From Radicibacter daui (GTDB lineage: Bacteria > Pseudomonadota > Alphaproteobacteria > Radicibacterales > Radicibacteraceae), in assembly GCA_030657355.1 (NCBI GenBank), contig CP131056.1:1818501-1882500 (forward strand): a stretch of DNA of 64,000 nt, written 5' to 3'. The position numbers were made by a program, and so were the translations under genes. Under the pieces are notes generated by a model. That model was not told the origin of the DNA, did not search any database, and saw only the letters and a list, made by a program, of their open reading frames with translations. Below, in pieces: positions 48,085-59,925 of this stretch (the first letter of the stretch is position 1; every line of letters begins with the position of its first letter).

Positions 48085-50253
48085 TCAGGCGGCCTGCAGC
48101 TCCAGGATCAGGGCCGTTTCCGGCCAGAGCGAAGGCAGGATGAGGCCGGCAAGCGCGAGGGCCGCACCGTTCAGCACGGCACCCTCGCCGGTAAGGCCCG
48201 CCCAGTGCGGCTGATCGGCAAGGCTGCGGTTGCGCGGCAGGTCGGGCAGCGGGTCCAGAAGCTTGACCCGGTAATCGCGGGCCGGATCAAGGCCAAGGAA
48301 GCGCAGCGGCGGGTTGATGCGCTGAGGCGAGACGGCGGCCTGCACCAGCGTGTAGACGGCGCTTTTCCGGTCAGCGGCCACGACCCCGTAGCCGTAACGC
48401 CCTTCGCCCATGCCATCGAGGCGCCAGCTCACGCCGCCATGCAGCGTGCCGCGCAGGCGCTTGTAGTGGGCGACATAGGCCTTGAGCACGGCTTCTTCTT
48501 CGGCGGGCACCAGATCGGGGTCGAGCTCCATGCCGTAATGGCCGAAGAAGGCGCTGGCGGCGCGCAGCTGCATGGTCGGCTGGCGGCCGGAGCTGTGCAC
48601 CGGCGAGGGGCCGACATGGGCGCCCATGATTTCCGGCGGCAGCAGGCGCGCGATGCCCCGCTGCATGCGCTGGCGCTCCAGCGGGTCATTGCTGTCGGAA
48701 GTCCAGACCCGGTGGGTGCGGGAGAGGATGCCGAGATCGGCCCGGCCGCCGCCCGACGAGCAGCTCTCGATCTCCACATGCGGATGGGCGGCGCGCAGCC
48801 GGTCGATCAGGTCATAAAGCCCGACGACGAAGGCATGGTAGGCAGGCTTGCCAGCGGAGCCGCCGGGGAAGAGCTCGCGGTTCATGTCCCACTTCAGGTA
48901 CCGGATGCCCGGATTGGCCGCGAGCACCGCATCCAGCTTTTCAAACAGGTAGTCGCGCACCTCGGCCCGGCCCATATCAAGTACCAGCTGGTTGCGGCCG
49001 GTCGGGCGGTCATAACCTTCCAGATGCAGGCACCAGTCGGGATGGGCGCTATAGAGCTGGCTTACCGGATTGACCATTTCCGGCTCGACCCACAGGCCGA
49101 ATTCCATGCCGAGGCTTTCGACATAGGTAATCAGCGGGCCGAGGCCTTCGGGATATTTTTCCGGGTCGGGCCACCAGTCACCCAGCGCGGCGGTATCGTC
49201 ATGCCGGCCGGGGAACCAGCCATCATCGAGCACAAAGCGCTCGGCACCAAGGCGGGCGGCGCCATCGGCCTGCGACTTCAGCCGCTCCATGGAATGGTCG
49301 AAATAAGTGCCTTCCCAGGTGTTGAAATGCACCTTTCGCGGGCTCATCGACCCGCCCGGCCAATCCAGCACGCTCTTGCGCACATGGGCATGGAAGCTCT
49401 GCGACAGGCCGTTGAGGCCGTTTGCGGAGAAGGCGGCATGCAGCGGCGGGCTGTCATAGCTCTCGCCCGGTGCCAGGGTTATTTCGCCGGGGAAGAACAG
49501 TTCCCCCATTTGTACCTGACGCTCGGCATCCGTCGTCTCTTCCACCAGCAGGCGGTTGTTGCCGGCCCAGCCGAGGGAGAAGCCGTAGACGGTGCCGCTC
49601 TCTTCCGAAAAGCCGGGCGTGCCGGCGATGAGGACGGGCCAGGTTTCGTGCCCCGAGCGGCCACGCCGGTTCTCGCGCTGCCAGATGCCGACGCCGGCCG
49701 AATGGCGGCGCTCCAGAAATTCGCCGATCCAGCGGCCTTCGAACCCCAGCACCTCACGGCATTCCAGCGGAATGGCGAAGCTGCCGGCGGCGCACCAGTC
49801 GAGACTGTAGGGCGCGGCGCCGGTGTTGGTCACGCGCGTGGTGCGCACCAGCGTGTCGGTGCTGGGCGTGATCGACAGGGTGAGGGTGACGGCGAGCCCG
49901 GCGCGCTTGTCTTCTGCGCCGATCTCGATGGTGGTGGCATCTGCCGTGATGCCGGTGACGGCAAAACAGGGCGCCCAGTCTCGGCCGCCCCGGTGCCCTT
50001 CCAGCGCCGGCCGGGCGGCGGAGCCAAAGCCGGCGACCGGCAGCAGGTCAAGCCCGATCCAGCCATCGATATTCTGCGCCTTGCCCTGACGCACGAGGCC
50101 ATCGGCAAGGCGGGCAAGATCGGCCCCGGCGGGCAGGGCGGGGCCCCACCAGGCGATGCGCGGCAGGCGGGCCGCTTCCGGCGCGCCCGGGCGGGCGTCG
50201 ATGAGGAGGGTGGAGGCGGGGCCGTCAAGGCGCAGGAGAGTGGTGGCGGACAT
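48085..50253 (-). CDS. Alpha-galactosidase, GH36
   Basis: A 722-residue GH36 enzyme that removes terminal alpha-galactose from melibiose, raffinose or galactomannan oligosaccharides. The N-terminal beta-supersandwich precedes the barrel with FVLDDGWFPGRHDDTAALGDWWPDPEKYPEGLGPLI, and EFGLWVEPEMVNPVSQLY. The nucleophile is the aspartate in RYLKWDMNRE and the acid/base the aspartate in TSDSNDPLERQ. The CSSGGGRADLGIL block is also family-typical. No signal peptide is seen, so it acts in the cytoplasm on imported oligosaccharides. It lies 97 bases after the permease genes of the galactoside importer. Confidence 0.95.
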   Translation of the reverse strand: MSATTLLRLDGPASTLLIDARPGAPEAARLPRIAWWGPALPAGADLARLADGLVRQGKAQNIDGWIGLDLLPVAGFGSAARPALEGHRGGRDWAPCFAVTGITADATTIEIGAEDKRAGLAVTLTLSITPSTDTLVRTTRVTNTGAAPYSLDWCAAGSFAIPLECREVLGFEGRWIGEFLERRHSAGVGIWQRENRRGRSGHETWPVLIAGTPGFSEESGTVYGFSLGWAGNNRLLVEETTDAERQVQMGELFFPGEITLAPGESYDSPPLHAAFSANGLNGLSQSFHAHVRKSVLDWPGGSMSPRKVHFNTWEGTYFDHSMERLKSQADGAARLGAERFVLDDGWFPGRHDDTAALGDWWPDPEKYPEGLGPLITYVESLGMEFGLWVEPEMVNPVSQLYSAHPDWCLHLEGYDRPTGRNQLVLDMGRAEVRDYLFEKLDAVLAANPGIRYLKWDMNRELFPGGSAGKPAYHAFVVGLYDLIDRLRAAHPHVEIESCSSGGGRADLGILSRTHRVWTSDSNDPLERQRMQRGIARLLPPEIMGAHVGPSPVHSSGRQPTMQLRAASAFFGHYGMELDPDLVPAEEEAVLKAYVAHYKRLRGTLHGGVSWRLDGMGEGRYGYGVVAADRKSAVYTLVQAAVSPQRINPPLRFLGLDPARDYRVKLLDPLPDLPRNRSLADQPHWAGLTGEGAVLNGAALALAGLILPSLWPETALILELQAA

Positions 50254-50350: not shown

Positions 50351-51202
50351 TCAGCCCTTGGTGGCGCCGAGGGTGAGGCCGGCGATGAAGTGCTTCTGCA
50401 TCAGGAAGAACATGGCGACCGGCGGCAGCGCGGCGACGATGGAGCCGGCGGAGACGAGGTGCCAGGAGGCGACATAAAGGCCGTTCAGCGACTTGAGGCC
50501 GCCGGTGACCGGCATGGCGCTATCGCCCTGCACCAGCACCTGCGCCCAGAAATAATCGTTCCACACGAAGGTGAAGATGAGAACGGCAAGGGCGGCGATG
50601 GCCGGGCGCATCAGCGGCAGCACGATGCGGCGGAAGATGACGAACTCGCTCGCCCCATCCACCCGTGCCGCCTCGATCAGCTCGAAAGGCAGCGCCTTAA
50701 TGAAGTTGCGCATGAAAAGCGTGCAGAAACCGGTCTGGAAGGCGGTGTGGAACAGCACGAGGCCGGTGACGGTGTCGTAGAGGCCGAGCTTCAGCGTCAG
50801 GTCGCGCACCGGAACCATCAGGATCTGGAACGGCACGAAATTGCCGGCGATGAAGACGAAGAAGACGAAGAGATTGGCCTTGAAGCGATAGGTGCCAAGG
50901 GCAAAGCCGGCAAGGCAGCTGAGGCCCACAGAGGCGATGACCGTGGGAACGGTGATCTTGAAGCTGTTGAAGAGGTACTGGCCGATGGGGCTGGAGGTGA
51001 AGATGGCGGTATAGTTCTCCACCAGGTTCCACTGGGTCGGCCAGCCCCAGTAATTGCCGGCATTGATATCGCCGGCGCTGCGCACCGAGGTGAGCAGCAC
51101 GGCGATCAGCGGCAGCAGCCAGAGGATAAGGGCGACCGGCAGCGAGATCATGTAGAAGCGCCGGGTCAGCGGGCCTGTCTTGGCGATCGGGGTCGGAAAC
51201 AT
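50351..51202 (-). CDS. Galactoside ABC transporter permease (MalG/LacG type)
   Basis: A 283-residue permease starting MFPTPIAKTGPLTRRFYMISL at 51202; the upstream open frame is not the true start. The coupling loop is IEAARVDGASEFVIFRRIVLPLMRPAIAALAVLIF. Six membrane helices are visible, and a C-terminal QKHFIAGLTLGATKG tail ends it. Its start overlaps the upstream permease stop by one base (TGATG). It imports the sugar recognised by the binding protein at 52288-53517. No ATPase gene is present in this operon. Confidence 0.94.
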   Translation of the reverse strand: MFPTPIAKTGPLTRRFYMISLPVALILWLLPLIAVLLTSVRSAGDINAGNYWGWPTQWNLVENYTAIFTSSPIGQYLFNSFKITVPTVIASVGLSCLAGFALGTYRFKANLFVFFVFIAGNFVPFQILMVPVRDLTLKLGLYDTVTGLVLFHTAFQTGFCTLFMRNFIKALPFELIEAARVDGASEFVIFRRIVLPLMRPAIAALAVLIFTFVWNDYFWAQVLVQGDSAMPVTGGLKSLNGLYVASWHLVSAGSIVAALPPVAMFFLMQKHFIAGLTLGATKG

Positions 51203-52113
51203 CAGCGAGCCCTCCGCTCGGCCTTGAACATGCGCACGATGAAGATGGTGATGTAGACCATCATGATGAGGAAGAGCACGGTGGCGATGGCCGAGCCATA
51301 GCCCATGCGGTAGCCATATTCGCTGAGCGCCTGTTCGAACATGTAGTAGGCGAGCACGCGCGAGGAGCCGAAGGGGCCGCCCTGCGTCATGATCGAGATC
51401 ATGTCGAAGCTGCGCAGCGCGCCGATGACGGTGACGACGATGGCGAGGAACGTGGCGGGGCGCAGCTGCGGCAGGATGATGTGGCGCAGCATGGTCCAGC
51501 CGGTGGCGCCATCGATGCGGCCGGCTTCCACCTGCTCCGGGTTCACGTTGTTGAGGCCGGTCAGGAACAGGATCATGCAATAGGCGATCTGCGGCCACAG
51601 GCCGGCGGCGATGATGCCGTAGGTGACGTAGTGTTCGTCCGCCAGCACCGGGATGCCCGGCAGGCCAAAGACGCCCAGCAGCTTGGCGAGCAGGCCGTAG
51701 CTGGGGTCATAGAACCAGCTGAAAACGAGGCCGACCACCACCTGGCTGATGACGAAGGGGAAGAAGAACAGCGACTTGACGAGACGGATGCCGAACACCG
51801 ACTGGTTCAGGTAGAGCGCGATGCCAAGGCCGACCGGTACGGCCAGCATATAGAGCACCAGCCAGATCACGTTGTTCTTGAGCGAGGTATAGAAAGCTTC
51901 GTCGCCCATGAGCTCGACGTAATTGCCGAAGCCGACCCATGTCTTGGGCGAAAGACCGTCCCACTCATAGAAGCTGATGTCGATGCTCTGGAAGATCGGG
52001 AAGATCACATAGACCAGAAACATGATCATCGCCGGGGCGAGGAAGAGCCAGGGCGCGATGCGCTTCTGATGGCGTTCCCAGAAACCGACCCGGGGGCGCG
52101 CGGAATTCTGCAT
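51202..52113 (-). CDS. Galactoside ABC transporter permease (MalF/LacF type)
   Basis: A 303-residue permease. It has the first helix RIAPWLFLAPAMIMFLVYVIFPIFQSIDISFYEW and the coupling loop VEAGRIDGATGWTMLRHIILPQLRPATFLAIVVTVIGALRSFD. Family-typical LFFFPFVISQVVVGLVFSWFYD is also seen. It pairs with the downstream permease. Separated from the binding protein gene by 174 bases that hold a terminator-like hairpin, so its level is probably lower than that of the binding protein. Confidence 0.94.
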   Translation of the reverse strand: MQNSARPRVGFWERHQKRIAPWLFLAPAMIMFLVYVIFPIFQSIDISFYEWDGLSPKTWVGFGNYVELMGDEAFYTSLKNNVIWLVLYMLAVPVGLGIALYLNQSVFGIRLVKSLFFFPFVISQVVVGLVFSWFYDPSYGLLAKLLGVFGLPGIPVLADEHYVTYGIIAAGLWPQIAYCMILFLTGLNNVNPEQVEAGRIDGATGWTMLRHIILPQLRPATFLAIVVTVIGALRSFDMISIMTQGGPFGSSRVLAYYMFEQALSEYGYRMGYGSAIATVLFLIMMVYITIFIVRMFKAERRAR

Positions 52114-52287: not shown

Positions 52288-53517
52288 TTACTTATAGATA
52301 CGCTCGCGGGCCTTCTCGAGACGCTCGAGGATCTGCTCGCGGCGATCCGGCTTCACCATATATTCCTGGAAGCCGTCCATGCCGACCTTGGCCATCTCGG
52401 CCGGGGCGTCGCGGTCATAGAACTGGGCAAGGCCATCGGCGGTCGAGAGCATCTCGAAACCGGCCTTCAGATAGGGATCGTCCGGAACCGGTGCCTTGTT
52501 GTTGACCGGCAGCTGGCCGAGGATCTTGTTCATGCCCAGCTGCACTTCAGGCGTGGCGAGCAGGGCGAGGAACTTCTTCGCATCGGCCTTGTTCGGCGCG
52601 TTGGTCGGCATGTGGAGCGTCTCGGTCGGTGCATCCTCGGCCCGCGGCAGACCCTTGGTGATCTCCGGGAACGGGAAGAAGCCGAGCTGGTCCTGCGTCA
52701 GTCCCGCTTCCATCGCCGGAGCGACGAAGAAGTTGCCGAGCAGGAACATGCCGCTGTCACCCTTCACGAAGGTGGCGAGCGCTTCCTGCCAACCGTAGGA
52801 GGGGTGGTTCTCGAGGAAGTAGCCGGGCTTTACCAGCTCGTCCCACTTGTCGAACACTGCCTTCACCTTCGGGTCGGTGTAGGGCACCTTGCCGGAGGTC
52901 AGGTCCATGTGGAACTTGTAGCCGTTGGTGCGCAGGTCGAGATAATCGAACCAGCCACCGGTGGTCCAGGTTGCCTTGGTGCCGATGCCGAACGGCGTGA
53001 TCTTGTTTTCCTTCAGCTTCTTGCTGACGGCGAGCAGCTCGTCCCAGGTCTTCGGCGCGGTGAGGCCGAGCTTGGCAAAGATGTCCTTACGGTAATAGAT
53101 GCCCCACTGATAGTAGCTGTAGGGCATGGCGTACTGCTTGCCGTCGAAGGTGACGGAAGACAGCGCGGCCTTGAAGGCATCCTTGTCGGTGAAGACATCG
53201 CTGATGTCCGCAAACAGGCCCGCCTTGACGAACGGCTCCATGCGGTTACCCGCGTACCAGGCGCAGATATCCGGCGCGCCGGCGGTCAGGAAGTTGCGGA
53301 TGGAGGTCTTGTAACCTTCGTGGTCGAAGATGTTCCACTTAACTTCGACATCCGGGTTCTGCTTCTTGAACGTATCGATGAGATACTGCATCGCGGCCTT
53401 GGGGGCCGGGTCGGACGTGTCGGTATTGATCGTCAGCGTGCTGGCGTCGGCGGCGCTCACCGCCAGAAAAGCGGCAAAAGCAGCCGCCGTGGAAAGGGCG
53501 AGTGTCTTGAGGTGCAT
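52288..53517 (-). CDS. Galactoside ABC transporter substrate-binding protein (family 1)
   Basis: A 409-residue binding protein. Signal peptide MHLKTLALSTAAAFAAFLAVSAADA, cleaved near ADA-STL. The mature protein has the MalE-like PAPKAAMQYLIDTFKKQNPDVEVKWNIFDHEGYKTSIRNFLTAGAPDICAWYAGNRMEP. It lies beside alpha- and beta-galactosidase and galK/galT genes, so a galactoside (melibiose, raffinose, lactose or similar) is the likely ligand. The ATG at 53517 has a strong ribosome-binding site (GGGAGGAAACAAG). The upstream leader is 370 bases from galK. Confidence 0.93.
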   Translation of the reverse strand: MHLKTLALSTAAAFAAFLAVSAADASTLTINTDTSDPAPKAAMQYLIDTFKKQNPDVEVKWNIFDHEGYKTSIRNFLTAGAPDICAWYAGNRMEPFVKAGLFADISDVFTDKDAFKAALSSVTFDGKQYAMPYSYYQWGIYYRKDIFAKLGLTAPKTWDELLAVSKKLKENKITPFGIGTKATWTTGGWFDYLDLRTNGYKFHMDLTSGKVPYTDPKVKAVFDKWDELVKPGYFLENHPSYGWQEALATFVKGDSGMFLLGNFFVAPAMEAGLTQDQLGFFPFPEITKGLPRAEDAPTETLHMPTNAPNKADAKKFLALLATPEVQLGMNKILGQLPVNNKAPVPDDPYLKAGFEMLSTADGLAQFYDRDAPAEMAKVGMDGFQEYMVKPDRREQILERLEKARERIYK

Positions 53518-53887
53518 CTTGTTTCCTCCCAGAAACGGACACCGTTGATGATCTTTTTGGCCGGCTCGCGCGGCATTGCCCGTTTTACTGTCCGAAAAGG
53601 GCAATGGGCCGGCCCGGCACTCTCTCGTAACTGCTCAAACGCCGACCGGGCAAAAATGCCTTCCCCTGCCGGCGCCGATGCCCGAACTGTGCTGAGCAGT
53701 GCTTTCGCTGTCAATGCTTTTGTTTCTAAATTTTGTCAAATGCTTCGATATTTCGGCAAAGAAAACAATAAATCCGGCCTTCAACCTGCCACTGGATGAG
53801 AATGGCGGGTCATTTCGAAGATTTTGGAAAGTATGTGGTTTCGAAACCGGGGTTCTGCCCGGCCCGATCCGGGGCCGGGCAGAATGG
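53518..53887. other. Promoter region between galK and the binding-protein gene
   Basis: This 370-base gap is AT-rich in its middle, unlike the flanking genes. It contains a TTGACA-like sequence on the minus strand near 53735, and TTCG-containing stretches at 53744-53755 (TTCGATATTTCG) that resemble the operator motif of the lacZ-type and deoR promoters with a shorter spacing. A perfect 12-base palindrome GGTTTCGAAACC lies at 53837-53848, and a strong GC hairpin (TTCTGCCCGGCCC with its complement, 53853-53884) lies right after galK. The hairpin has no T-run. No gene is visible. Confidence 0.55.
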
Positions 53888-54970
53888 TCAGTTTGCGACC
53901 GGATAGATGAGCCGGGCGAGCGGGTGGCGCGGGGCCATGGCGGCCCACCAGGCCTCCGCCCTGTCGGCGGCGACCAGTGCCAAAACGCAGCCGCCAAAAC
54001 CGCCGCCGGTCTGGCGGGCGCCAAGCGCGCCGAAGGTCACGGCATCTTCGGCAAGCCTGTCCGTCTCCTCGATGGTGATGCCGTAATCATCCTTTTCCGA
54101 CAGGTGGCTAAGGGACATCAGCTCGCCGAAGCGCTTGTAATCCTTCGCTTTCAACGCGGCGATGCCATCGAGCACATACTGGTTGTCGTTGATGATGTGG
54201 CGGGCCCGGCGGCGCAGGATGTCCGGCAGAGCCTCAAGGCGCGGCAGATCGCTCACGCCAAGTTCGCGCAGGGAGCTGATGCCCAGCAGGGCGCAGGCTT
54301 CCTCGCATTGCTGGCGGCGCTGCTTGTAGCCGCCATCGACGAGGCGGTGGGCAACGCCGCTATGGACGATGGCAATGATGTAGTTGGCCGGCAGTGGCAC
54401 CAGTTCGGTTGCCAGCGTCATGGTATCGAGAAAGAGCGCCTGCCCCGGCTCGCCGAGGGAGGAGACCATCTGGTCCATGATGCCGCAGGGCATGCCGACG
54501 AACTGGTTCTCCGCCTTCTGGCCGAGCGTGGCGATCCGCCGCCCGTCGAGCCCGAGGCCGAGCAGATGATTGAGCGCGCGCATGGTTGCCACTTCCAGCG
54601 CGGCGGAAGAGGAGATGCCCGCTCCCATCGGCACATCGCCGGCAACGGCAACCTGCAGCGCCGGAATGGCAAAACCTTCGCCACGCAGGATCTCGACGCA
54701 GCCGGCGACATAGTCGGCCCAGTGATGGGCGGCCGGGGCGCCGGGCGCATGCTTCAGCCGGCCGTCGAAATTGGCGCTGACGGCCTCGACAGCGCCCTCC
54801 GGCCCCTCGGTGCGGGCAAGGCTGACGCTGGTGCGGAAGGGCAGCGGGGCCGGAAAGACGAAGCCGTTATTATAGTCGGTATGTTCACCCAGCAGGTTGG
54901 CGCGCGCGGGCGCGCTGGCAGTAACCTCCGGCACGCGGCCGTAAGTGCGGGCGAAGAGTTCAGCGCTCAA
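53888..54970 (-). CDS. galK: Galactokinase
   Basis: A 360-residue GHMP kinase. Signature GEHTDYNNGFVFPAPLPF binds galactose; the ATP loop is PMGAGISSSAALEVA; the C-terminal QTGGGFGGCVLALV completes the site. It phosphorylates alpha-galactose to galactose-1-phosphate in the cytoplasm. The start is a TTG at 54970 that overlaps the galT stop (TTGA); there is no suitable ATG nearby. It is translated behind galT. Confidence 0.95.
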   Translation of the reverse strand: MSAELFARTYGRVPEVTASAPARANLLGEHTDYNNGFVFPAPLPFRTSVSLARTEGPEGAVEAVSANFDGRLKHAPGAPAAHHWADYVAGCVEILRGEGFAIPALQVAVAGDVPMGAGISSSAALEVATMRALNHLLGLGLDGRRIATLGQKAENQFVGMPCGIMDQMVSSLGEPGQALFLDTMTLATELVPLPANYIIAIVHSGVAHRLVDGGYKQRRQQCEEACALLGISSLRELGVSDLPRLEALPDILRRRARHIINDNQYVLDGIAALKAKDYKRFGELMSLSHLSEKDDYGITIEETDRLAEDAVTFGALGARQTGGGFGGCVLALVAADRAEAWWAAMAPRHPLARLIYPVAN

Positions 54971-56019
54971 AGGGCAACCTCACGCAGGCGTTCAACGGTC
55001 CATTCCGGGGCGACATCGACAAGGAAGGTGCCGGCACCGGTCTCGCAGCCGGCAAGGTACTTCAGCTTGGTTTCGGTGCGAAGGAAAGGCAGGAACTGGA
55101 TGTGGAAGTGGAAATGGCCTTCCTCACCCTTCGGCGCGGCATAAACCACCATGATGTAGGGGAAGGTCTTGCCGAAGAGCGCGTCATAGCGGCGCACAAT
55201 CTCGCCGATGCCGCTCGCCATGGAGGAAAGCCCGTCATCTTCCATGAGCCAGGGACCGGCTACCCGCTTACGCGGGGCAAGCCAGACTTCGTAAGGATAA
55301 CGCTGGAACGGCGGCACGAAGGCGGTGACGTTATCGTCGCCCCAGACCTCGTAGGCGCCCCTGGTCTTGTCGAGCAGGGTCTCGATCTGGCTGCCTTCGC
55401 GAAAACCCTTTGCCATCTTTTCGATGACCGGCGGCAGGAAGGAGAAGGCGTAGATCTGGCCGTGCGGGTGGTGGAGCGTGACGCCCACTTCCTCGCCGCG
55501 ATTTTCAAACGGCATGACCGCCTGGATGCGGTCATCCCCCAGCAGGGCACGGAACCGCTCCGCCCAGACGCGCAGGATAAGCTCGCGCCGCTCCTGAGGC
55601 AGGGTTGCGAAGCTGCCGCTATGGTCGGAGGAAAACACCATCACCTCGCAGCGCCCGGTGGCCGGGGCGCTGGGAACCACCAGCTCCGGCGCGCCATGCG
55701 CTTCGAGATGGAAACCGGGGAAGCGGTTTTCGAACACCGCGACTTCGAAACCGGTGAAGGGGATTTCACCCGGATAACCGCCCTTGTCCACCGGGCAGAG
55801 CGGGCAGAAGCCGGCGGGCGGCTTGAAGGTGCGGTCCTGCCGGTAGGTAGCGTAGGCAACCCACTCCTGGCGCAGCGGATGCCAGCGCATATGCGGATTG
55901 GGCGGGGGGAGCGGCTCCAGCTCTTCCGTCACCGGAAGCTCATGCTCCTGCCAGCCATAGAGCCAGAGATTGCGCCCGTCGGGCTTCACATGGGTGCGGG
56001 TGTGGAGCTTGCGGCTCAT
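54967..56019 (-). CDS. galT: Galactose-1-phosphate uridylyltransferase
   Basis: A 350-residue GalT. The nucleophile motif is HPHGQ (residues 184-188), with zinc ligands C72 and C75 in GFCPLCPVDKGG. Other family features are NPHMRWHPLRQEWV near the start and HFHFHIQFLPFLRTETKLKYLAGCETGAG at the C-terminus. It swaps UMP between UDP-glucose and galactose-1-phosphate. It overlaps both neighbours by 4 bases in the order GH42-galT-galK. No galE is in view, so the epimerase must be elsewhere. Confidence 0.96.
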   Translation of the reverse strand: MSRKLHTRTHVKPDGRNLWLYGWQEHELPVTEELEPLPPPNPHMRWHPLRQEWVAYATYRQDRTFKPPAGFCPLCPVDKGGYPGEIPFTGFEVAVFENRFPGFHLEAHGAPELVVPSAPATGRCEVMVFSSDHSGSFATLPQERRELILRVWAERFRALLGDDRIQAVMPFENRGEEVGVTLHHPHGQIYAFSFLPPVIEKMAKGFREGSQIETLLDKTRGAYEVWGDDNVTAFVPPFQRYPYEVWLAPRKRVAGPWLMEDDGLSSMASGIGEIVRRYDALFGKTFPYIMVVYAAPKGEEGHFHFHIQFLPFLRTETKLKYLAGCETGAGTFLVDVAPEWTVERLREVAL

Positions 56020-57980
56020 GGCTGCCTCCAGGCGCTGACGCCTGCCGGCGGCACCTCGCGCCCGCCGAGGAGGAAGCTGGTTCCTTCCGGCGCCGGGGCG
56101 CGGGCCGGCTTTTCGCTGGAGTTGATGCAGAAGACAATGTCACCACGGCGGCGCAGGCGAAGGTCGCCATCCAGCTCGGTAACCGCGACGCCGGCTTCCT
56201 GCGCCATCTGGCGGATGAGCGTGCCGACCAGCCCGCCATCGGCCTTGCCGGTCAGCGTTACCACCTTGCCGCGCTTCAGCACCGCCGGCCAGCCATCCTC
56301 GAAGGAAGCGAGCACCTCGGTACCTGCCGCCACTTCGCTGAGGTCCCGCCAGCAGGTAACCTCGCCCTTGAGGTTGCCGCCCTTCACCGGCTTGACGATG
56401 CCCGGCGGCATGGCGTCGGAGCGCAGCACCTTGTGCCCGGTGATCGCCGCCATCTCGCCGGGGGCGAGGGTGCGCGGGATCTGGTAATCGATGGTCTTGG
56501 AGCCGGAACGCGGGCCGATGAGCGTTGCCGCACCGCTGCTGGCGAGCGCCTTCAGCGCCGCCGCAGTCGGGGCGATGAGGGTTGGCACCAGCACGAGCTT
56601 GTAGCCGGCAAGATCGGCGCCCGGCGGCACGATGTCGATATCAAGGCCGAGCTTGCGCGCCGCTTCGTACCAGCGGAAGGCCAGCATGGAATAGTTAAAG
56701 GTGGCCGATTGCGGCTGGATGGCGGTCATCCACTGCGAGGAATAGTCGATCACCAGCGCGACCGGGGCTTGCTGCACCGGCGGCAGGGCAAGCTGCTTCA
56801 GCTCGCCGGCGACGGTTGCCGCCTCTTCGCCGCCGACATCGCGCTCATTGTCCACGCGGGTGAGGCCGGCATGGTACTGCTCCTGCGCGAAATAGGCCTG
56901 TTTCCAGCGGAAGTAGGAGACGACTTCCGCGCCGTGGGAGAGCGCCTGCCAGGTCCACAGGCGCACCATGCCGGGCAGCGGCACGGTGTTGTGGTCGGCC
57001 CAGTTCACCGGGCCGGGCTGCTGCTCCATGACCCAGAAGCGGCCGCGGCCGACGGCGCGGTAAAGGTCGTGATGGAAGGCCGCGATATCCGGGTGGCCGG
57101 TAAAGGCGTAGGCGGTCTTTTCTTCCGGCTCGAACGGCTGCTCGCGGGTGAAGCCGAGCGGGTAGCTGTCCCAGCTGGCGAAATCGAGCCCGCCCTCATT
57201 GTGCATGTCGAAGTGATCGAAGGTCCAGGTGAAGCCCATATAGTTATGGGTGACGTCGGCCTTCGTGTGCCGGCGCAGGATTTCCACCTGCATGCGGCAA
57301 TAGTCGGCCGCCTCGTCACTGGCGAAACGGAAATAGTCGAGGCGATGGCTGGGGCCGGATTCCGTAACCGTGAGGTTCGGCAGGCTCACCTCGTCAAAGC
57401 CATTGAACTCCATCGACCAGAATACATTGCCCCAGGCGGCGTTCAGCTTCTCGATGCTGCCTTCGTAGCGGCGGGCGAGCCACTGGCGGAAGCGGGCGAG
57501 GGCGGCGGGGCTGTAGCTGCGGATAGTGTCGTGGCAGCCAAACTCGTTATCGATCTGCCAGTAGGCGACATGCGGGTTGCTGCCGTAGCGCTCCGCCATG
57601 GCGGTAACGATACGCGCGCTCTCGCGGCGATAATCGGGGCTGGAGAAATCATAATGCCGGCGCGAGCCGAAGCCGCGCACCCGGCCCTCCTTGTCCACCG
57701 GCAGGATGCCTGGATATTTGTCGACCAGCCATTTGGGCGGGGTGGCGGTGGGGGTGCCCAGCACAACCTTGAGGCCGGCGGCGCCCAGCACATCGATGGC
57801 GCGATCCAGCCAGCCCCATTCATAGGCCGGGATACCGGTGGCGCTGTCCTTCGGCTCTATGCGGCTCCAGGCGAATTCGCCGATGCGCACGGTGCTGAGG
57901 CCCATCTCGGCCATGCGGCGCGCATTGTCTTTCCACTCGGCCTCGGGCCAGTGTTCCGGATAGTAACAAACGCCCAGCAT
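56016..57980 (-). CDS. Beta-galactosidase, GH42
   Basis: A 654-residue GH42 enzyme. The start MLGVCYYPEHWPEAEWKDNARRMAEMGLSTVRIGEFAWSRIEP is the family start and begins at the ATG at 57980; an upstream frame is spurious. The acid/base is E146 in WQIDNEFG; the nucleophile is the glutamate of WVMEQQPGPVNW (near residue 312). The trimerisation and beta-domain follow. It hydrolyses lactose-like or plant beta-galactosides in the cytoplasm. It heads the lacZ-type-galT-galK operon. Confidence 0.95.
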   Translation of the reverse strand: MLGVCYYPEHWPEAEWKDNARRMAEMGLSTVRIGEFAWSRIEPKDSATGIPAYEWGWLDRAIDVLGAAGLKVVLGTPTATPPKWLVDKYPGILPVDKEGRVRGFGSRRHYDFSSPDYRRESARIVTAMAERYGSNPHVAYWQIDNEFGCHDTIRSYSPAALARFRQWLARRYEGSIEKLNAAWGNVFWSMEFNGFDEVSLPNLTVTESGPSHRLDYFRFASDEAADYCRMQVEILRRHTKADVTHNYMGFTWTFDHFDMHNEGGLDFASWDSYPLGFTREQPFEPEEKTAYAFTGHPDIAAFHHDLYRAVGRGRFWVMEQQPGPVNWADHNTVPLPGMVRLWTWQALSHGAEVVSYFRWKQAYFAQEQYHAGLTRVDNERDVGGEEAATVAGELKQLALPPVQQAPVALVIDYSSQWMTAIQPQSATFNYSMLAFRWYEAARKLGLDIDIVPPGADLAGYKLVLVPTLIAPTAAALKALASSGAATLIGPRSGSKTIDYQIPRTLAPGEMAAITGHKVLRSDAMPPGIVKPVKGGNLKGEVTCWRDLSEVAAGTEVLASFEDGWPAVLKRGKVVTLTGKADGGLVGTLIRQMAQEAGVAVTELDGDLRLRRRGDIVFCINSSEKPARAPAPEGTSFLLGGREVPPAGVSAWRQP

Positions 57981-58044
57981 GGGCCATCCTCCCCAGGCGG
58001 GGTCCTGACGCAAGATTGCCGGCCCCGGAAACGTTGTTTCGCAC

Positions 58045-58073
58045 ATTTACGATTTTCATCGAAAATTTGTCAA
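58045..58073 (-). promoter_or_regulatory. Candidate promoter and operator of the beta-galactosidase operon
   Basis: A -35 TTGACA (58073-58068 on the minus strand), a 17-base spacer and a weak -10 GTAAAT (58050-58045). Inside the spacer is the perfect dyad ATTTTC-ATC-GAAAAT (58052-58066). The wider element TTACGAT-N5-TCGAAA (58047-58064) recurs at 59065-59082 before the DeoR gene with the same spacing. A bound DeoR-type repressor would block polymerase here. The promoter lies about 65 bases before the GH42 ATG. Confidence 0.6.
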
Positions 58074-58203
58074 CGTCGCTGACCCGAATTTGCGGGGGTA
58101 GGGGTGCAATTATCTGTTCCTGCACGGCGCGGGGCTATGCAGGGTGATAAATAGGGCCGGTGGGGGTAAGGAGGACGTTGCCGGGCGCCGGCGAACAACG
58201 GCC

Positions 58204-58992
58204 TTAAATGTCCGGCACGTCGGCCAGTTCGATGGAAAGGCCGGTCTGGCGCAGGGTGGTGAGCTGCTTGTCACTGGCGCCGCTGTCGCTGATGAGCAGA
58301 TCCACATCGGCTAGGTCGCAGATGCGGGCGGTGGCGATTTCCAGCAACTTGGAATGGTCGGCCAGCACCACCTTCTTGGTGGCCGCATCCATGATGGCCT
58401 GCTTGATTTCCGCCTCGGCAAGATTGGCGTTGGTGAAGCCCTTGACCGGGTCCACGCCCGAGCAGCCGACAAAGGAAATGTCAGCATTTACCTGCTTTAA
58501 AAGCACGGCGCCGAGCGGGGCGACGAGGGAATGCTGCATGGGCCGGAGCGTGCCGCCGGTAACCACCACGGTGATGCCGGGGTGATGCTCCAGCTCCAGT
58601 GCGATGTTGAGCGCATTGGTGACGACCACCACGTCGCGCAGTTCGGGCGAAAGCGCCTTGGCCAGCTCCGTCGTGGTGCCGCCGACATCGACGATGATGG
58701 TATCGCCATTCTGCACGAGGCCGGCGGCCATGCGGCCGATGGCGCGCTTCTCGATCTGGTTTCGCGCTGCGGTAACCTCGATTGGCAGCTCGAAGCGGCG
58801 CGGGGCAATGGGCATGGCGCCGCCACGGGTGCGGCGCAGGGCCTTTTGCTGTTCCAGGTACTCAAGATCGGCCCGGACGGTGACGGGGGAGACGCCCAGT
58901 TCCTCTGAAAGATCAGTGACTTTCACATTGCCGCGACTCTGCAGGACTTCAAGAATCGCACGGTGGCGCAGGGTGGCGTCGAGGGAGGGCAT
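58204..58992 (-). CDS. DeoR/GlpR family transcriptional regulator
   Basis: A 262-residue regulator. The N-terminal HTH is RHRAILEVLQSRGNVKVTDLSEELGVSPVTVRADLEYLEQQKALRRTRGGA. The C-terminal sugar-phosphate sensing domain has IGRMAAGLVQNGDTIIVDVGGTTTELAKAL, VTGGTLRPMQHSLVAPLGAVLL and DHSKLLEIATARICDLADVDLLISD. These proteins respond to phosphorylated sugars, here plausibly galactose-1-phosphate or tagatose derivatives. It lies 223 bases upstream of the GH42 gene on the same strand. The shared operator motif implies it controls itself and that operon. Confidence 0.93.
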   Translation of the reverse strand: MPSLDATLRHRAILEVLQSRGNVKVTDLSEELGVSPVTVRADLEYLEQQKALRRTRGGAMPIAPRRFELPIEVTAARNQIEKRAIGRMAAGLVQNGDTIIVDVGGTTTELAKALSPELRDVVVVTNALNIALELEHHPGITVVVTGGTLRPMQHSLVAPLGAVLLKQVNADISFVGCSGVDPVKGFTNANLAEAEIKQAIMDAATKKVVLADHSKLLEIATARICDLADVDLLISDSGASDKQLTTLRQTGLSIELADVPDI

Positions 58993-59064
58993 GGGCAGTT
59001 TCCGGGCTTTTGTTTGTTTATCAACCTGCCGGCTTTGGCGCGGCTTCGAAACGCAAATGACAGG

Positions 59065-59082
59065 TTACGATATTTTTCGAAA
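59065..59082. promoter_or_regulatory. Candidate DeoR-family operator in the deoR promoter
   Basis: TTACGAT-ATTTT-TCGAAA, sharing both conserved blocks and spacing with the site at 58047-58064. Its right end overlaps the palindrome TTTCGAAA (59075-59082). A further TTCGAA lies at 59045-59050. The sites lie about 75 to 90 bases before the deoR ATG at 58992, as expected for autoregulation. Confidence 0.55.
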
Positions 59083-59259: not shown

Positions 59260-59925
59260 ATGTCCCTGAATGAAAACAGCGGGCTCGACGCGGCCCGTCT
59301 CGCCTCCCGACTGGACGACATGCTGAGTGACCTTGGCGGTGCGCTCTCCATGCTGCGGTCGAGCAATCCGCCGGTGATGGAGCCGGCCGAATATCTGGAA
59401 CGGACCGACCGGCTGATGCGGGGCTTCGCGGCGCTGAACCGCGGGCGCCGCCTTGCCAGCCATCTGCACTCCCTTGCCGGCGAAGAGCCGGAGGAGGAGG
59501 AAGACGAGGCCGGCTGCGTTGATGCCAATACGCTGGTGATGGAGCTGGGCGAGGCGGTGCGCGGCGCACTGCCCTTCGGCGTGCATCTGGAAGTGCGGAC
59601 CACGCTCGCCAGCGCGCCCTGCTGGGGTGATGAGGAACGGCTGCGCCGGGCACTCGGCTGCATTCTCGATGATGCCGTGCAATCGGTCGGCACCTCCGGG
59701 ACGATCAAGCTGACGCTGCGGCGCATGGCAGGTCATGTGGTCATCACCGTCAGCGAGGATGGCACGGCCAGTGCGGCCACCCGCGAAGCCCGGCCCCGGC
59801 CGGAAGCGGTGGGCATGGGCCTTGCCGTTGCCGAAGGGCTGCTGCGGCGGGGTGGCGGCATCCGGGTCGCCCGCCGGGCCGGCCATGGCAGCCGGGTGGC
59901 ACTGGTGCTGCCGGCGCGCCCGTGA
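59260..59925 (+). CDS. Orphan GHKL/histidine-phosphotransferase-like protein with degenerate ATPase domain
   Basis: A 221-residue protein with a helical N-terminus (about 1-75, including RLDDMLSDLGGALSMLR) followed by an acidic EEPEEEEDEAG linker and a Bergerat-fold domain. That domain retains GMGLAVAEGLLRRGGGIRV and AGHGSRVALVLPA, but its N box reads GCILDDAVQSV, with Asp replacing the key Asn, and the D-box is weak (VSEDGTAS). No phosphoacceptor histidine is visible in the helical part. The layout recalls ChpT-type phosphotransferases and kinase C-termini, yet the key residues are missing. It has a good ribosome-binding site (GCGGAGGAAC). Function unknown. Confidence 0.7.
   Translation: MSLNENSGLDAARLASRLDDMLSDLGGALSMLRSSNPPVMEPAEYLERTDRLMRGFAALNRGRRLASHLHSLAGEEPEEEEDEAGCVDANTLVMELGEAVRGALPFGVHLEVRTTLASAPCWGDEERLRRALGCILDDAVQSVGTSGTIKLTLRRMAGHVVITVSEDGTASAATREARPRPEAVGMGLAVAEGLLRRGGGIRVARRAGHGSRVALVLPARP

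Follow-up and report, generated by a model that had tools for sequence, protein, structure and literature searches.

Among sugar regulators of the DeoR family, GalR of Bifidobacterium co-regulates galactose catabolic genes in nine of the ten genomes studied, and in the excerpts of that work its regulon comprises no transporters (PMC4746261). The operators of RhaR, a second member of the family, are given in excerpts as two imperfect direct repeats with 10–11 bp periodicity (PMC3870299). The window considered here, a stretch of 64,000 nucleotides from Radicibacter daui, likewise combines a DeoR-family gene with galactose genes. The cluster differs from that regulon, as far as the excerpts describe it, in containing an ABC transporter, GH42 and GH36; a paralogous sister repressor and a further contig are also part of the present case. 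The excerpts on RhaR offer a further parallel, a local sugar regulon with a repeat-type operator, but there the genes are those of rhamnose use and the operator sequences are unique to each group. DeoR-family galactose regulators and tandem DeoR operators with a 10–11 bp period are already described, and the present case is a common type of control applied to a new gene set. A literature search at title and abstract level, among largely open-access papers, found no DeoR-type galactoside operator from this group.

Gene cluster and candidate operators

The cluster lies entirely on the minus strand and was identified by Pfam matches. It consists of deoR (58204–58992), a GH42 β-galactosidase gene (56016–57980; Glyco_hydro_42, 1.1 × 10−139), galT (54967–56019; TIGR00209, 104.4 bits, cut-off 102.1), galK (53888–54970; TIGR00131, 262.5 bits, cut-off 226.65), a sugar ABC transporter substrate-binding protein (SBP) gene (52288–53517; SBP_bac_1, 4.2 × 10−46), two permease genes (51202–52113 and 50351–51193) and a GH36 α-galactosidase gene (48085–50253; Melibiase, 1.1 × 10−113). 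The Leloir gene missing from this set is galE. The proposed galactoside repressor carries an N-terminal HTH_DeoR domain (PF08220, 3.2 × 10−16) and a C-terminal DeoRC sensor domain (PF00455, 7.1 × 10−48), both above cut-off, which places it in the DeoR/GlpR family. Its best NCBIfam model is AgaR (NF040755), which it matches with 186.3 bits, below the 260-bit cut-off for an AgaR equivalog. A divergent gene at 59260–59925, 178 bp from the deoR-side operator described below, encodes a 221-residue protein with HATPase_c as its sole match, which could be histidine-phosphotransferase-like.

An earlier sequence-only reading had proposed that the word TTACGAT-N5-TCGAAA, present in the deoR and GH42 promoters, marks a DeoR-controlled galactoside regulon. 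Both copies were recovered on re-reading the sequence, at 58047–58064 (TTACGATTTTCATCGAAA, GH42 side) and 59065–59082 (TTACGATATTTTTCGAAA, deoR side); the pattern fixes 13 of 18 positions, as claimed, and the copies actually agree at 15 of 18. The perfect dyad attributed to the GH42-side copy was also seen by eye (ATTTTC-ATC-GAAAAT, 58052–58066), and it is not the portion that the two copies have in common. In the sense direction of the minus strand, the deoR-side copy (operator A, TTTCGAAAAATATCGTAA) lies 73–90 bp before the ATG, and deoR would presumably regulate itself through it. The GH42-side copy (operator B, TTTCGATGAAAATCGTAA) lies 67–84 bp before the ATG at 57980, with a third half-site, CGAAA, at the next 10-bp step (58037–58041). 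Since the pattern was built from these two copies, the fair test is the frequency with which promoters of this kind have so similar a word in common; when both intergenic regions were dinucleotide-shuffled, 80 of 2000 trials (∼0.04) produced a common 18-mer matching at 15 or more of its 18 positions. The pair taken alone is thus marginal evidence, and the case rests on further sites, the match before galE and the relatives.

A looser relative had been reported at 53744–53755, but this stretch (TTCGATATTTCG), which abuts the −35-like TTGACA of the SBP promoter, has its CG cores 8 bp rather than 10 bp apart and is possibly a weak auxiliary site. It was replaced as the third site by 53813–53830 in the galK–SBP gap (operator C, plus strand, TTTCGAAGATTTTGGAAA), which the sequence-only reading had missed and which fits much better. 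Operator C has three mismatches to the original pattern on both strands, and against shuffles it reaches p values of 0.001 with a palindrome model derived from the other sites and 0.014 with a tandem model. Downstream of it, a promoter block TTGACA-N5-TAGAAAC occupies 53722–53739 on the minus strand, with its −35-like hexamer at 53734–53739; in the form TTGACA-N5-TMGAAAC the block is common to R. daui and four species of a genus of another order (g251; loci L058, L066, L067 and L068), being present in five of the eight loci scanned. With 74 bp between operator C and the −35-like element downstream of it, repression of the SBP gene is not explained by simple overlap and would need cooperation of operator C with 53744–53755, or a different promoter. 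Operator B appears by eye to be flanked by a TTGACA on one side and a weak −10-like stretch on the other; a σ70 consensus scan passed no promoter at either gap, so this placement is tentative.

The whole-genome scan found the exact pattern twice in 5,059,753 bp, both times in the window, against a Markov expectation of 0.023; frequent occurrence at unrelated sites, which the sequence-only reading had named as the objection to its proposal, was not observed. With two mismatches allowed, eight of the 27 loci inspected out of 50 rows (20 rows without loci being left out) are intergenic and 19 lie within open reading frames. One intergenic example with two mismatches to the original pattern, TTTCGTCAAAAATCGAAA at contig 1:2229187 (L022 1501–1518), precedes a gene whose start resembles triosephosphate isomerase by eye. 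A fourth site, TTTCGAACTCTTTCGCAA, was found upstream of the start of DeoR2, a paralogue of the window DeoR, and a consensus drawn from all four, TTTCGAWNNNNWTSGNAA (TTTCGAWN4WTSGNAA), has five exact matches in 5.06 Mb compared with 0.59 expected from a first-order Markov model of the window; four of these five are the sites from which the consensus was built. All five are intergenic, compared with two of the 19 distinct one-mismatch places with inspected loci. The consensus scan brought 15 new loci under inspection (L075–L089), three intergenic and 12 inside open reading frames, with one-mismatch rows without loci left out. Open reading frames at motif loci and in the stretches from relatives were called with our own codon-usage script, without annotation.

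The one new exact match, TTTCGAAATTCTTCGGAA, lies on the second contig, 27 bp before a galE gene of 333 residues (contig 2:795468 region; L076 1501–1518 and 1545–2546, respectively) that is identified by TIGR01179 (441.5 bits, cut-off 262.3). Together with a third half-site just beyond it, the match forms three CG half-sites at 10-bp steps, and the chance of a consensus match in one 150-bp promoter is about 2 × 10−4. As the window cluster lacks galE, this is the gene that a galactose regulator should reach. Candidate sites thus stand before deoR, GH42-galT-galK and galE and between galK and SBP, which is the layout expected of a GalR-like galactose regulon.

Arrangement of the half-sites

The four g251 species share CGYAAGAAAAGGAAAGAGAWCGAAGA directly before the start codon of deoR, which comprises CGnAA, GGAAA and CGAAG at 0, 10 and 20 bp, and their permease promoters share CTTTCTTTTTTTTTCGwTnnCTTTCTTTCC together with TATCGAAATWAAAAGAAAGTC, also spaced by 10 bp. 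Trained solely on the five R. daui sites, a half-site matrix ranked same-orientation 10-bp spacing first of 20 arrangements in both promoters, with scores of 10.0 (deoR) and 10.8 bits (permease) against 6.7 and 9.8 bits for the next best and a p value of 0.007, which is the floor of the 150 column shuffles run for each of the 20 arrangements per region. The corresponding p values for the g251 SBP promoter are unreliable owing to gaps in the alignment. Pairs of [CG]GNAA at 10 bp occur in three of 11 regions (tail 0.0018), as do pairs at 6 bp, in a post hoc count for which several of the sequences had been seen beforehand and which is given no weight here. Since the conserved g251 blocks consist of tandem CGnAA-type half-sites at 10 bp, the basic operator unit is probably not a dyad but a set of CG-centred half-sites 10 bp apart, arranged in tandem in the relatives.

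The sequence-only reading implied instead a plain inverted repeat occupied by a single dimer, a possibility that deserves consideration but is less likely than not. The arms of the five R. daui sites agree slightly better as inverted repeats (29 of 35 positions) than as direct repeats (24 of 35), and operator C obtains its best score with the palindrome model. The R. daui half-sites are nearly self-reverse-complementary (TTCGAA), so that tandem and inverted readings are indistinguishable in this genome. The relatives argue for the tandem reading, both through the spacing of their conserved blocks and because the inverted pattern TTnCG-N8-CGnAA is absent from the g251 galactose-cluster promoters, with one match far from deoR in L066 and none in L058, L067 and L068. 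The RhaR motifs within the DeoR family are also direct repeats of 10–11 bp in the excerpts of that study (PMC3870299).

The DeoR2 paralogue and distant relatives

DeoR2 is one of five DeoRC proteins in the R. daui genome; it is 64% identical to the window DeoR and is its sister in the tree (support 95/92). Its gene is followed by a PfkB-type sugar kinase gene (together at about 1693173–1695070 of contig 1; L053 7174–9071), whose best model is fructokinase, below cut-off, and before which no operator was found (p = 0.22). Two other DeoR-family genes (L055 and L056) adjoin rhamnose-like and glycerol-3-phosphate-like genes, as judged by eye from the open reading frames, and the genome scan gave no exact consensus match near them. 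The closeness of DeoR2 in the tree, its very similar recognition-helix region and the exact consensus match in its own promoter raise the question of whether the sites belong mainly to DeoR2, or to both repressors, rather than to the window DeoR as sole owner. This is somewhat unlikely, given that galactose-pathway or deoR promoters account for four of the five sites and that the g251 relatives, of which each genome yielded a single one at the chosen cut, are located in galactoside clusters.

In each of the four g251 species a DeoR relative of 54–57% identity accompanies genes for SBP, permeases and GH36; the same script also recognized GH42, in three of their four stretches. A plasmid of Thermus thermophilus SG0.5JP17-16 carries a 58.8% relative divergent from SBP-permease-permease-GH42-GH36-galT. 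On Deinococcus plasmids a relative of ∼50% identity stands beside the same genes in two of the three examined, in one case also beside galE; on the third it does not. These clusters thus resemble the window in gene content, some including galK or galE as well, but differ in gene order and in an operator motif that is weakly recognizable. With the tandem matrix, the training sites of which were picked by eye, promoter p values are 0.046 for Thermus, 0.087 and 0.17 for D. QL22, 0.47 and 0.98 for D. psychrotolerans and 0.021 for D. deserti, so that the motif is weak in these Deinococcota promoters; the value for a further relative, G396, is 0.13. In family f16, the stretches read around three relatives show no adjacent galactosidase genes; one of these stretches stops just past the gene.

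The searches covered one genome each for the family and the order of R. daui. Class samples gave a match in three of 385 and three of 384 genomes, with R. daui itself among the first three, and the orders of G246 and G334 gave matches in three of 17 and four of 61 genomes. A search of genome contigs for footprinting returned relatives at 29–35% identity only (16 loci).

Proposed regulation and significance

The gene neighbourhood, the synteny with DeoR relatives, the scarcity of the motif and the galE match support the regulon originally proposed, and the DeoR-family repressor encoded nearby very likely has the common word as its operator. Chance resemblance between two AT-rich promoter stretches, for which the 80 of 2000 shuffled pairs speak, was rejected as highly improbable after the genome scan in view of the genome-wide scarcity of the word, the presence of operator C as a third site and the match before galE, a site on which the consensus was not trained.

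The repressor would bind pairs, and sometimes triplets, of CG-centred half-sites (TTCGAA-like, with a CGnAA core) that are separated by one helical turn (10 bp). Bound to the phased half-sites of the deoR, GH42 and galE promoters, it would keep them off, with transcription released once it senses a galactoside breakdown product. Its predicted targets in the window are its own gene, GH42-galT-galK and the transporter-GH36 operon; galE, on the second contig, would be controlled in trans. The effector is probably galactose or galactose 1-phosphate, as suggested by the usual behaviour of DeoR sensor domains. DeoR2, carrying the same operator, may share or cross-regulate the regulon. From sequence we infer binding, repression, operon borders, effector and cross-talk alike. 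It is conceivable, though unlikely, that the duplicated sister repressors share one operator that ties the Leloir branch on two contigs to the fructokinase-like PfkB kinase, in which case the use of raffinose-type α-galactosides could be one regulon with two sensors responding to different effectors.

The analysis defines a concrete, testable galactoside regulon, with five candidate sites on two contigs and one sister repressor, in an order represented by one genome in the collection. It also suggests that, in a group of DeoR proteins that reaches Thermus and Deinococcus, operators are likely built from CG half-sites repeated at 10-bp intervals, and it may provide a modest natural example of repressors that have retained the same operator after duplication.
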